Part shown: one piece after another, positions 510-60,830 of the stretch
Position numbering within the stretch: the stretch's first letter is position 1
Layout of the letters: every line of letters starts with the position of its first letter
Origin: Verrucomicrobiales bacterium
Lineage (GTDB): Bacteria > Verrucomicrobiota > Verrucomicrobiia > Methylacidiphilales > JAAUTS01
Assembly (NCBI GenBank): GCA_031256975.1
Contig: JAIRPN010000003.1
Location: 1-64,000, forward strand
DNA length: 64,000 nt
Direction: 5' to 3'
Made by a program: the position numbers and the translations under genes
Notes under the pieces: model-generated
The model's database searches: none
Told to the model about the DNA's origin: nothing
Seen by the model: only the letters and a program-made list of their open reading frames with translations

Positions 510-1223
510 ATGAACCCCAACCTCAACCGTCATCTCCCTCCCTATATGCCGCGCCAGGAAGCCTTGCTGCTGATCTGGATCGAACAATTCCTCAACGGCC
601 TCAAACCGATGCTCGGCCTGTTCCAGATCGAGCAGCAGGACTATGAGCAATATATGGAGGGTTTCGGGTCGCTCAAGAACGCCTACGACTGCCATGTCCA
701 CAGCGACGGCTTGGCGAAGGCCAACACCCGCTTCAAAGACTTGGTGTTCTATGATCGCAACCATTTGACGACAAGCGCGCCGCGCGAAGAAGGGGTAATC
801 TTCCCCGGAGTGAATACTCTCGAAGGCGGTTATGTCTGGCGACTGGCGGAACTGATCGAGGAAAAGATTTTACCCAATCCCGCCTGCTCGGAGGACATCA
901 AACGGCAGTTGCAAATCCTGCCGGTTGCCCATGCGGTGCCTTCGCCGGAACAACTGGTGGCGGAGCCGGACATCGTGTGCGACGGCTCCAAGGTCACGAT
1001 TCACACCACCATCCCCAAACCCGCCGACAGCCAGATCGTGCATGTGGACAAGCATGACGGCAAGGGCATGGTCAAGGAGCGGGAAACACCGAAGGCCAAC
1101 TGTGAATACCAGACCGAGTTGCCGGAAATAGAAACGTTGTGGACCTTCAAGGTGGCCCTGAGCATCAAGGGCCGCGAAGTCGGCACCGCTGCCTACGTCA
1201 ATGTGTTGGTCAAATGCACCTGA
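510..1223 (+). CDS. Hypothetical protein, 237 aa
   Basis: No family was recognised. The protein is soluble, with no signal peptide or membrane segment. Its first half is helical and rich in Gln, Leu and Glu. Its second half (about residues 150-237) looks beta-rich, with charged turns and a final valine-rich strand, perhaps an immunoglobulin-like fold. The start follows an AAAGGAAAA site at good spacing. Codon use resembles the neighbouring genes. It stands alone, about 200 bp before a large autotransporter, and nothing in the context points to a function. Confidence 0.7.
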   Translation: MNPNLNRHLPPYMPRQEALLLIWIEQFLNGLKPMLGLFQIEQQDYEQYMEGFGSLKNAYDCHVHSDGLAKANTRFKDLVFYDRNHLTTSAPREEGVIFPGVNTLEGGYVWRLAELIEEKILPNPACSEDIKRQLQILPVAHAVPSPEQLVAEPDIVCDGSKVTIHTTIPKPADSQIVHVDKHDGKGMVKERETPKANCEYQTELPEIETLWTFKVALSIKGREVGTAAYVNVLVKCT

Positions 1224-21456: not shown

Positions 21457-22053
21457 CTATGCGCCAGCCAATGCTTCTTGGATCAGCGCCAGTTGGTCGG
21501 GAGGGTAGGATAATTTCAACGCTTCCTGGTGCGCTAACGGCGACATTTTTTTCCAAGTCTTTTGCAGGATGGAAATCATTTTTTCCTTATCGGTCTTGCG
21601 GATTAAATCGCCGAGCTGGTATTGCAAGGTGACCAGGCACAGGGCGTCTTCCAGCACTTGGACTTCGGGATCCTGCGCGAGATTCTTTTTCAGGTTCAAG
21701 GTTTGTACCCGCTCGATGAATTCCCCGGGAAAACCGAGTTGGCGCAGGATTTCACCGGATTTTTTGGCATGAAAGGATTTTAGTTCGGTCCGCCATTGCA
21801 GGTAACCGGCACGGGTCGGCGGGTAGGAGTTGCGCGGAATCTCCCAGCGGCACAAATGCTGGCAGCGGGAGGCCAATCGCAAGGCGGGTGAGGCATTTGG
21901 GCTGAGTTTTTCGACCCAGTCGCTGAGGCAGCGGGCGTAAAATAATTCATACGGCAGGCTTTGTCCGTTGATTTCGATGTGGTGGGGATCGGCGTTGTTG
22001 GCTTCATCAAAGAGCCGGATGGCTTCCTGCAAGGACGGGTTATGTTGGTGCAT
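21457..22053 (-). CDS. DUF4202 family protein
   Basis: The order of conserved segments matches DUF4202 as I recall it: FDEANNADPHHIEINGQ, LPYELFYARCLSDWVEKL, RCQHLCRWEIPRNSYP, GYLQWRTELKSFHA, DPEVQVLEDALCLV and KTWKKMSPLAHQEAL. The many conserved His and Asp residues suggest a metal-dependent HD-like fold, but no function is established. The ATG at 22053 is chosen by family alignment; another in-frame ATG lies at 22083. It follows an AraC-like gene on the same strand. Confidence 0.85.
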   Translation of the reverse strand: MHQHNPSLQEAIRLFDEANNADPHHIEINGQSLPYELFYARCLSDWVEKLSPNASPALRLASRCQHLCRWEIPRNSYPPTRAGYLQWRTELKSFHAKKSGEILRQLGFPGEFIERVQTLNLKKNLAQDPEVQVLEDALCLVTLQYQLGDLIRKTDKEKMISILQKTWKKMSPLAHQEALKLSYPPDQLALIQEALAGA

Positions 22054-22104
22054 GGTGATTGGGGCAATATAGCGGACCGGCATGGGGCGGGCAAGCGGGC
22101 GGGT

Positions 22105-22521
22105 TTAACCGCGGCGGTGGCGTTGGCGCCAGAAGCGCGGGCGGATTTTTTCGACACGCAGGAAAAATTGGCTGAAGACGGCGAGGGAACCGAAGCCGAG
22201 GCGTTGTGAGATTTCCGTCAGGGGCAGGTCGGTGTTGGCAAGCAGGTCGCGGGCGGTGAGGCGGATATATTCGTCCACCCAGGACAGGGCGCTGATGCCG
22301 CTCATGGCTTGAATGGCGGGGGCAAGGGTGCCGGGCTGGACTGCCATGCGCAGGGCGTAGAATTCGACCGGGCGTTTGCCGTGCTGATGGATTAAGGCGG
22401 CAAAGAGGTTGATGAAATCATTGTTGCGGGCGGGAGCGGTGCCGCCGGGATGATTGAGGGGAAGGAATACGTCGGCGGGAAGAATTTTGGGGTAAGCGGT
22501 GGAGTCGGTGGGGGTTTCCAT
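22105..22521 (-). CDS. AraC-family helix-turn-helix protein, 138 aa
   Basis: The C-terminal half (about 75-138) is an AraC-type DNA-binding domain: WVDEYIRLTARDLLANTDLP, then LTEISQRLGFGSLAVFSQFF. The N-terminus is short and has no cupin or other sensor domain that I can recognise. The usual family length is nearer 280 aa, so this is a compact or truncated regulator. The start at 22521 is used because an upstream in-frame ATG at 22590 would place the N-terminus inside the repeat array. The array directly upstream is a plausible target for autoregulation. Confidence 0.8.
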   Translation of the reverse strand: METPTDSTAYPKILPADVFLPLNHPGGTAPARNNDFINLFAALIHQHGKRPVEFYALRMAVQPGTLAPAIQAMSGISALSWVDEYIRLTARDLLANTDLPLTEISQRLGFGSLAVFSQFFLRVEKIRPRFWRQRHRRG

Positions 22522-22553: not shown

Positions 22554-22763
22554 TGGTGGAGAAGTTTGTCGATTCTATATAAATAGTCAAATTTATAGAA
22601 TTGACAATGGATAATTATATTAATAATGGATGAATAATAGAATTGTTAGCCTATAATTAGATTAATCATGGGTATTTTATAGAATTGTCGGCTGCTGATT
22701 CTATTAATCAGGGGTGATTGATATAATTGTTGTTCGGCGATTCCATGAATTTTACTGTGGGCC
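22554..22763. repeat. Degenerate AT-rich tandem array, 42-bp period (21-bp half units)
   Basis: The octamer TAGAATTG starts at 22596, 22638 and 22680, and TATAATTG at 22722, always exactly 42 bp apart. A further diverged unit precedes them from 22554. Each 42-bp unit has a second half with ATTAATNA-like bases at 21 bp. Units agree at roughly 70% by eye. Spacing equals four helical turns, so the conserved words lie on one DNA face. The array lies just upstream of the AraC-like gene and after the end of the TIGR03790 gene. Confidence 0.8.
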
Positions 22764-22813: not shown

Positions 22814-24502
22814 TTATTGCTGGCGGTTGGGATGCGGCAGGACGGGTTGCAAATTGGCGGATAGCTTGTTCCAGCCGTGTTCCTTGGCCTTGGCTTGGGC
22901 GATTTTGGGAACATCGAAAAATTGTGCTTCCTTGGGATGGCTGGCGATGAGCGATTCGTAAACACCGAAGGCCTCCTGCAGGCGGTTTTGTGACAAATAA
23001 TAATCCGCCAATTTGAGGGGAACGCGGATGACCGCATTCGGCGATTCGGGGTTGGCGATGGCTTTTTGATAGGCGCCAACGACGGTCTCCGCGGGTTGTT
23101 GCAGTCCCTGCAAAATCCCGGCATAACCCTCCCAGAAATAACCCGCGTTGCCGGCTTTCTCGGCGAGAGTGCCAAGTTGCCGGAGCTTGTCCTCCTGCGC
23201 CTTGTCCGGCTGTTCGGCAATCACCCTTGCCAGGCGGAGCAATAGCCAGGGCAGGTTCGGGTCGTGGCTGTCATTGGCGGTGGCGACGTCACGCAAGAGT
23301 TGATGCGGGTAGGGACGATACAGCGGGTCGCCCACCATGGTGACCATCCAGGACAGGACGGGCTGGGATTTATAGGCGGCTTCGCCAAAGGAAAGCCCGG
23401 ACAGCAGGCTGTTGGTGAAAATCTCCACGTTTGGCGTGAAACTGACATAAGGCTCGTAAACACAACCCATGGTGGCGGCGGCTCCCTTGCTGATCAGGGG
23501 GCCGGCCCAACGACGGTCGGTGCTGCGCAGGGTTTCCGCGCTGAACGAGTGGATGTGATAGGCGATGGCGCCGGGACGGAAACGGAATCCGGGTTGCAGG
23601 AACGGGCCGGTGCAATCCCCGGTGTACCAGCCGAAATACAGCGCGGCGTTGTCCCACGGGGTATTGATCGGCACCACTTCGGGATTCGTATCCAAACTGG
23701 TTTCGAAACCTGACTTTTGCGTGTTGGCGGCGGCGTTGCGAATCCCTTCGTCGGCGGCGAAATAGCCGCTGGCATGGTCGGTGATATTGCGTGAGTCGAA
23801 ATAGGCCCGCCCGGTGAGCTCGGTTTTTTCAACGCTAATGGCGGCGTCAATCATGCGTTTGACATCCTCGGCCAGGGGAGCGTCCAGCCGGGCGACCAGG
23901 ATGACCCAGTCGGCATAGGGTTGGGAGAAATGCTGGATCAGCGTGGCCGAGTAATAAGGATTGGGAATAAAGGCCCAGCGGGGCACGCCCTGGCAGGGTA
24001 ATAATGCAAGCTCGGAATCCACGGCGGCGGCATTGGTTTTAAGCGTGTCCGGCACGCCGGTCGGCGGGGTGATTGCCGGATCTTCGGCAACGCGCAACGG
24101 GATGCCACGGATCAGCACGATGCACCAGATCGGGTTGTTCAGGGTCTGTTCAATGCCAAACTCGCGCGCGTTCCAGGTCAGTGTGCGATGGCTGCGTTGA
24201 AACCATCCTTTTTGGGTGAGGTAGGTATTGATCGGTGCTTCAATTTGTTCCTGATAAACCTTGCGGGAAATGGTTTCGTCGGTGGGACATTCGATGCCGA
24301 GCACCTTGTCCGCCGGAATTTGCCGGGCGGCGGCGTAATATTCAGCCAGTGATTTGCTTTGCTGGTCGTTGGCGTTGTACACCACCAGAACATGTTGCGG
24401 AAGTTCCCAATTGTCATTAGCGCCGGGTGGGGCGGATTCCTCGGCCCGGCAGGCGATGCCGGACGCTAACAGCAAGAGGAACAACAGATGCCGGCGGTTC
24501 AT
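22814..24502 (-). CDS. TIGR03790 family protein with C-terminal helical repeats
   Basis: The exported protein has a signal peptide (residues 1-20, LLLLASGIACRAEE). The TIGR03790 core includes LPQHVLVVYNANDQQSKSLAEYYAAARQIP and the downstream segments with RGIPLRV and GCVYEPYV. This family of unknown function is frequent in Verrucomicrobiota, Planctomycetes and Acidobacteria. Residues after about 420 look like TPR-type helical pairs (AEKAGNAGYFWEGYAG, LADYYLSQNRLQEAFGVYESL). Its ATG overlaps the stop of the metallo-hydrolase gene by four bases, so the two are co-translated. Confidence 0.85.
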   Translation of the reverse strand: MNRRHLLFLLLLASGIACRAEESAPPGANDNWELPQHVLVVYNANDQQSKSLAEYYAAARQIPADKVLGIECPTDETISRKVYQEQIEAPINTYLTQKGWFQRSHRTLTWNAREFGIEQTLNNPIWCIVLIRGIPLRVAEDPAITPPTGVPDTLKTNAAAVDSELALLPCQGVPRWAFIPNPYYSATLIQHFSQPYADWVILVARLDAPLAEDVKRMIDAAISVEKTELTGRAYFDSRNITDHASGYFAADEGIRNAAANTQKSGFETSLDTNPEVVPINTPWDNAALYFGWYTGDCTGPFLQPGFRFRPGAIAYHIHSFSAETLRSTDRRWAGPLISKGAAATMGCVYEPYVSFTPNVEIFTNSLLSGLSFGEAAYKSQPVLSWMVTMVGDPLYRPYPHQLLRDVATANDSHDPNLPWLLLRLARVIAEQPDKAQEDKLRQLGTLAEKAGNAGYFWEGYAGILQGLQQPAETVVGAYQKAIANPESPNAVIRVPLKLADYYLSQNRLQEAFGVYESLIASHPKEAQFFDVPKIAQAKAKEHGWNKLSANLQPVLPHPNRQQ

Positions 24503-60632: not shown

Positions 60633-60830
60633 CACGTATTGCATATGTTTCTGATATGCTAAGCATATTTTATGGATATGCACTGAATAGTTTAAATGTA
60701 TGCTGAGCATTTTGGCATTATATGCGGTGAATATAGTTAAAATATGCGTCGGATATTGAAAATATATGCCATGCATATTAATAAAATATGCATGGCATAT
60801 TGGCCAAGTATTCAGTCGATTTTAGCTTAT
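60633..60830. repeat. Phased array of TATGC-N3-GCATA palindromes, 22-bp period
   Basis: TATGC starts at 60655, 60677, 60699, 60721, 60743, 60765 and 60787, each exactly 22 bp after the last, with a degenerate TATTC at 60809 and a half unit from 60633. The second conserved word is GCATATT at offset 8, so intact units (for example 60655, 60765 and 60787) contain TATGC-N3-GCATA inverted repeats. The seven-base spacer after it is AT-rich and variable. The array lies between convergent genes (LysM and rhlE), so it is not a promoter. It could be a multi-site binding element. Confidence 0.9.

Follow-up and report, generated by a model that had tools for sequence, protein, structure and literature searches.

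An array of nine half-sites, alternately inverted and phased at 42 bp, lies between a gene for a short AraC-type protein and a TIGR03790-family gene in the DNA analyzed here, a stretch of 64,000 nucleotides from a Verrucomicrobiales genome (the window). The array works like a phased multi-site operator, at least putatively; that it is a cooperative, autoregulatory nine-site operator of the short AraC-type protein itself is a reading for which we consider the chances evenly balanced. The array belongs to a larger class of phased dyad arrays found in Verrucomicrobiota, and the majority of these stand upstream of genes from a different family, an un-named one designated NYLP. The features of the window that bear on this are given below.

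510 to 1223, plus strand: NYLP-family gene (NYLP search), with weak upstream periodicity (z 4.9, below threshold)
21457 to 22083, minus strand: DUF4202 gene (PF13875, E=1.4e-69)
22105 to 22521, minus strand: AraC-like gene, 138 aa, HTH_18 and little else (PF12833, E=1e-13)
22564 to 22752, no strand: nine alternately inverted half-sites of about 17-21 bp, consensus tnATTnATAgAATtgtc, period 42 bp (autocorrelation, dyad tests)
22814 to 24502, minus strand: TIGR03790-family gene (family search), whose 3' end adjoins the array on its far side
60635 to 60810, no strand: second array, period 22/44 bp, motif ATATGC..GCATAT, between convergent genes (periodicity and motif comparison)

The array at 22.5 kb is real. 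At a shift of 42 bp, the autocorrelation match between positions 22554 and 22763 was 0.577, and at 84 bp it was 0.50; in 3000 dinucleotide shuffles the former value was never reached, either at 42 bp or at any other period between 10 and 89 bp. A sequence-only reading of the region had placed TAGAATTG at 22596, 22638 and 22680 and TATAATTG at 22722, spaced exactly 42 bp with ATTAAT-like words midway, and all of this was confirmed in the sequence; its estimate that the units are about 70% alike agrees with the 71-75% identity found over 56 nt (spacing 42 and 42). The 21-bp half units that it described are present at a dyad spacing of 21 bp, but they are inverted and not direct. The direct match at 21 bp was 0.175 over the same region, below the shuffle mean of 0.296, and the halves scored 0.60 as inverted repeats versus 0.41 at the best direct offset. 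There is one dyad axis per 21 bp. The nine half-sites follow the strand order - + - + - + - + -, and their centres alternate at 25 and 17 bp with zero exceptions and zero indels. Aligned by strand, they gave the consensus tnATTnATAgAATtgtcnnnc (18.7 bits, mean identity 0.59). The strict alternation favors an operator, as does a column-permutation test in which the dyads exceeded what periodicity alone would give (p=0.004). A search covering 46% of the genome found no second copy of the array, only isolated 14-20-bp matches with E values of 1.6 or worse, so any action of the array is local.

The adjacent gene encodes, as the sequence-only reading had supposed, a short AraC-family regulator. HTH_18 (PF12833) matched residues 55-134 of the 138-aa protein with 51.8 bits against a cut-off of 33.6; it was the sole Pfam match, and no N-terminal ligand-binding or dimerisation domain was found. 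Members of the AraC/XylS family that consist of a DNA-binding domain only do exist. The start codon of the gene (ATG at 22521) is backed by an alignment with a paralog and lies 42 bp from the nearest half-site. Since the DUF4202 gene is located 21 bp downstream on the same strand, the two genes probably form one operon; DUF4202 was present in one of the seven genomes of the family, that is, in none of the six other than this one. A promoter scan revealed no site on the strand of the AraC-like gene, which counts against the operator reading.

Short AraC-type genes of this kind are rare. A profile of the three proteins (E<=1e-15) detected three genes in two of 384 genomes of the class, namely the window gene, a paralog in the same genome (G000:C8:193514-193939; G000 is the genome of the window) and one gene in the same-genus genome G002, with 42% (paralog) and 30% (G002) identity. 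The best upstream periods of the paralog and the G002 relative were 40 and 42 bp, respectively, and 0 of 1000 shuffles matched each of them (periods 12-79). The upstream DNA of both is unrelated in sequence to the window array, which suggests that the motif differs as the protein differs. The periodicity before these two relatives is weaker than that of the window array; their dyad permutation p values were 0.178 and 0.13, compared with 0.004. When 84 AT-rich segments of this genome were tiled in a fixed manner, one reached the score of the paralog and two reached that of the G002 gene. The two top segments were the 60.7-kb and 22.5-kb arrays, and the paralog segment fell outside the top eight, indicating that its signal depends on where the scanning window is placed. 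In a joint scan of 62 loci, overlapping copies included, in-class periodicity with z>=6 was confined to the two loci of the window array and to L031, a GC-rich 21-bp signal; the paralog and G002 loci stayed below z 6. The operator idea is plausible because the gene encodes an HTH_18 protein and because all three known short AraC-type genes have periodic upstream DNA.

If the array is such an operator, nine half-sites of about 17 bp, alternating in orientation and phased to whole helical turns (42 bp being four turns), would line one face of the DNA directly upstream of the promoter for the short AraC-type and DUF4202 genes, with a probable overlap with that promoter. The most likely binder would be the neighboring short AraC-type protein. 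Each monomer, having two helix-turn-helix units, would cover one half-site of about two turns, neighboring monomers would meet head-to-head and tail-to-tail, and cooperative filling of the sites may result in a steep autoregulatory switch.

The known tandem sites of AraC-type proteins are direct repeats about 21 bp apart. The array resembles AraC/XylS operators such as araI and Pm in that half-sites of about 17 bp recur every 21 bp or so beside an AraC-type gene, and the protein has the C-terminal HTH_18 domain of that family. It differs in having nine sites instead of two, in their alternating instead of direct orientation (the low direct match and the inverted halves described above), which speaks against the operator reading, and in a protein that has neither the N-terminal ligand-binding nor the dimerisation domain. 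Iteron and centromere arrays likewise place numerous protein sites in helical phase within AT-rich DNA, but no replication or partition protein was found among the five flanking genes scanned. CRISPR arrays have near-identical repeats and unique spacers, whereas the units here are 71-75% alike, continuous and spacerless. REP elements and the GTAG- and CGTC-tagged palindromes are short, intergenic and reported from a verrucomicrobium too (PMC3733652). The 22.5-kb array also comprises short intergenic palindromes, but REPs are one sequence dispersed in many copies over the genome, whereas the array has no other copy and its units stand at a fixed 21/42 bp. TIGR-Tas units yield guide RNAs of 36 nt, each with two spacers, and depend on a Nop-domain protein (PMC12045711); they are similar in being gene-linked tandem arrays with repeats constant within a locus and different between loci, but the Nop-domain (Tas) protein is absent among the neighbors of the array. 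The array thus stands outside the families tested, which were AraC-type operators (by orientation), CRISPR, TIGR and REP.

The wider class was examined by a uniform scan of stretches of four genomes (168-bp windows, periods 17-63, z>=8.5). In G000 (1,260,314 bases), nine clusters were found, eight of them with a period of 20-23 or 40-46 bp, and in G003, of the same genus (313,835 bases), 12 of 18 clusters were in class, and one of these 12, L173, is a 7-bp microsatellite when judged by eye. No cluster was found in 200,000 bases of G006 (same family), and neither of the two clusters in 400,000 bases of G012 (same order) was in class. The sequence-only reading had proposed a genome-wide autocorrelation and named a lack of further arrays as part of what would refute it; dyad arrays with periods of 21, 22 and 42 bp dominate the periodic DNA of the genome sample, so other such arrays do exist. 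The wider class is statistically well supported. Two of the eight in-class arrays of G000 are those of the window, at 22.5 kb and 60.7 kb; the others precede glnD/pdxJ (C8:156k), phoH (C9:171k), rpsL (C8:270k), a DUF6261 gene (C9:53k) and two NYLP genes (C4:46k and C5:2.9k). Nearly all eight are of distinct sequence. The gene names phoH, glnD, pdxJ, rpsL, fusA, LysM, DEAD helicase, rhodanese, pilus-like and DUF192 were assigned by eye from translations. Searches of open-access papers yielded no account of such a class of phased arrays.

NYLP is an un-named family of about 235 aa, whose members, as far as tested, matched nothing in Pfam or NCBIfam at the family cut-off; 'FN3-like' for the protein ends is a visual guess, and a single-sequence structure prediction for the window member gave a mean pLDDT of 36. 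When the class was searched with one member, 13 of 141 genomes gave matches. Of the 30 NYLP loci tested, a set in which L209 and L212, both at contig ends, nearly duplicate each other, 23 had an in-class array (z>=7.5) in the 600 bp upstream; among the seven misses were two loci whose upstream sequence was shorter than 130 bp and another with a 24-bp period. A fresh phylum-wide search provided 14 new loci, of which 10 had an in-class array and two of the four misses had less than 200 bp upstream, and the first 600 bp of the gene, used as a control, gave 0 of 14. Under the identical rule, ordinary long ORFs gave 5/569 (G000), 0/95 (G006) and 0/191 (G012). The arrays of G003 lie about 0-66 bp before the NYLP start codons. 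Among the three DUF6261 (PF19775) loci, two had an upstream in-class array and the third had an array with a 42-bp period on its opposite flank; arrays with periods of 41-42 bp adjoin the DUF6261 genes at G000:C9:53377-53545 (L180), L182 and L181.

Other recurrent elements were observed around NYLP genes. Several NYLP arrays of G003 are flanked on the far side by 8-bp repeats, and L121, L122, L129, L165 and L177 share the composite order of 8-bp repeats, a conserved flank of about 60 bp, a 21-bp dyad array and the NYLP gene, some of them with an adhesin-like gene behind the latter. In the window, six copies of the 8-bp unit CGCGCTCG occupy positions 96-142, about 370 bp before the NYLP gene. 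At L186, L187, L204, L208 and L191, a small conserved ORF (..WGDP.Y..EPGDPGY..), spotted by eye in other families of the class, apparently lies between the array and the NYLP gene.

The sequence-only reading had also grouped the 22.5-kb array with that at 60.7 kb. Both belong to the same architecture class, but their motifs are different. Among 120 pairs formed by 16 arrays of this genome, 12 exceeded z 4, but only the top five are reliable, since several of the weaker pairs join arrays of similar composition. The strongest match was between 60.7 kb and C2:121k (z 16.3), followed by the phoH array and an NYLP array on C12 (z 14.7), the NYLP array C4:183k with 60.7 kb (z 11.6) and with C2:121k (z 10.5), and the rpsL array with an NYLP array on C15 (z 10.3). 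The 22.5-kb motif had no partner in this comparison. The ATATGC..GCATAT motif is common to 60635-60810, G000:C2:121354-121489 (L236) and the NYLP array C4:183k. The matches fall on numerous in-phase diagonals and on the two strands alike, as would be expected if these were sets of sites for one trans-acting factor and not recent copies, which is consistent with an operator. The C2:121k partner, like the 60.7-kb array, lies between convergent genes, and as the latter thus stands between two gene ends, a promoter operator cannot explain the whole class. Conversely, two G003 NYLP proteins (L121 and L165) are nearly identical over the stretch compared, but their arrays have wholly different motifs, suggesting that motifs change more quickly than the genes linked to them.

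These arrays bear on who binds at 22.5 kb. Similar arrays precede genes that encode no DNA-binding domain, and some precede no gene start, so the class-wide binder could be another protein, either one factor for the class or one dedicated factor per motif, with the AraC-like gene as a target only. The abundance of same-architecture arrays before NYLP and DUF6261 genes and the motifs shared in trans favor this explanation, whereas the absence of a partner array for the 22.5-kb motif and the periodic DNA upstream of all three of the otherwise rare short AraC-type genes argue against it. We consider it possible, with a probability of roughly one in four.

It is improbable that the array is a decayed minisatellite, a functionless 42-bp unit duplicated in tandem by slippage. 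The modest identity of its units would suit such decay, as would its distribution: the TIGR03790 gene is present in six of the seven family genomes, and no array was found in the neighborhoods fetched from the five others that have the gene, so the array was gained or lost recently on an evolutionary scale. One of these neighborhoods (L068) showed a short 21-bp period (z 6.5) that by eye is a near-perfect TATCGGC repeat. Slippage does not readily account for a spacing that is exact across nine half-sites with zero indels at about 59% mean identity, for one period recurring with unrelated sequences, or for the enrichment before particular gene families relative to ordinary long ORFs. Furthermore, when columns were permuted with the period kept, 25 of 37 arrays had a dyad score significant at p<0.05, and for 17 of the 37 it was significant at p<0.01.

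It is less probable still that the array acts as RNA, through tandem hairpins in an mRNA 5' leader, even though the start codon is close and the folds of both strands are better than those of shuffled sequences (z -3.1 and -3.6). An RNA hairpin would favor G.U pairs, but the departures between arms on the gene-sense strand, pooled over 37 arrays (five without a qualifying stem) and not independent of one another, numbered 156 G.T and 208 A.C, and those of the three short-AraC arrays numbered 3 and 11, respectively. This lack of a G.U excess rules out leader hairpins as the main reading and argues for duplex DNA as the object recognized, and the 60.7-kb and C2:121k arrays lie between convergent genes. 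An Rfam scan of nine sources, L001 among them, gave no match on the array; its one match was an Acido-Lenti-1 RNA (RF01687, 38.1 bits) at L177:7026-7072.

Three further origins were rejected: a coding one (42 bp being 14 codons), as the array occupies the gap between two accepted genes; a conserved promoter of the TIGR03790 gene, which ends at the array and whose orthologs lack it; and a phage or plasmid one, as the AraC-family matches of the AraC-type protein there are all distant, at less than 60% identity. A scan of viral contigs found no relative of this protein, and DUF6261 and NYLP queries against plasmids returned nothing.

In summary, the earlier view of an operator within a shared class of elements is partly supported. 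We tentatively propose, with a confidence a little short of even, that Verrucomicrobiota contain an undescribed class of elements, locus-specific arrays in which palindromic half-sites are set in phase at two helical turns (21-22 or 41-44 bp) just upstream of an NYLP, DUF6261 or short AraC-type gene. Orphan arrays elsewhere in the genome, such as those at phoH, at rpsL and between convergent gene ends, would often share the motif of such an array, and the motif would evolve faster than the gene linked to it. Such turnover would suggest protein-DNA address systems that are private and quickly rewired. If this reading holds, these genomes would contain many small, self-contained protein-DNA recognition modules in which the site sequence changes fast and the geometry, two helical turns in alternating orientation, stays fixed. 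The arrays would then offer a natural experiment on the evolution of DNA-binding specificity and cooperative operators, and a first way into the function of a protein family that has no Pfam or NCBIfam name.
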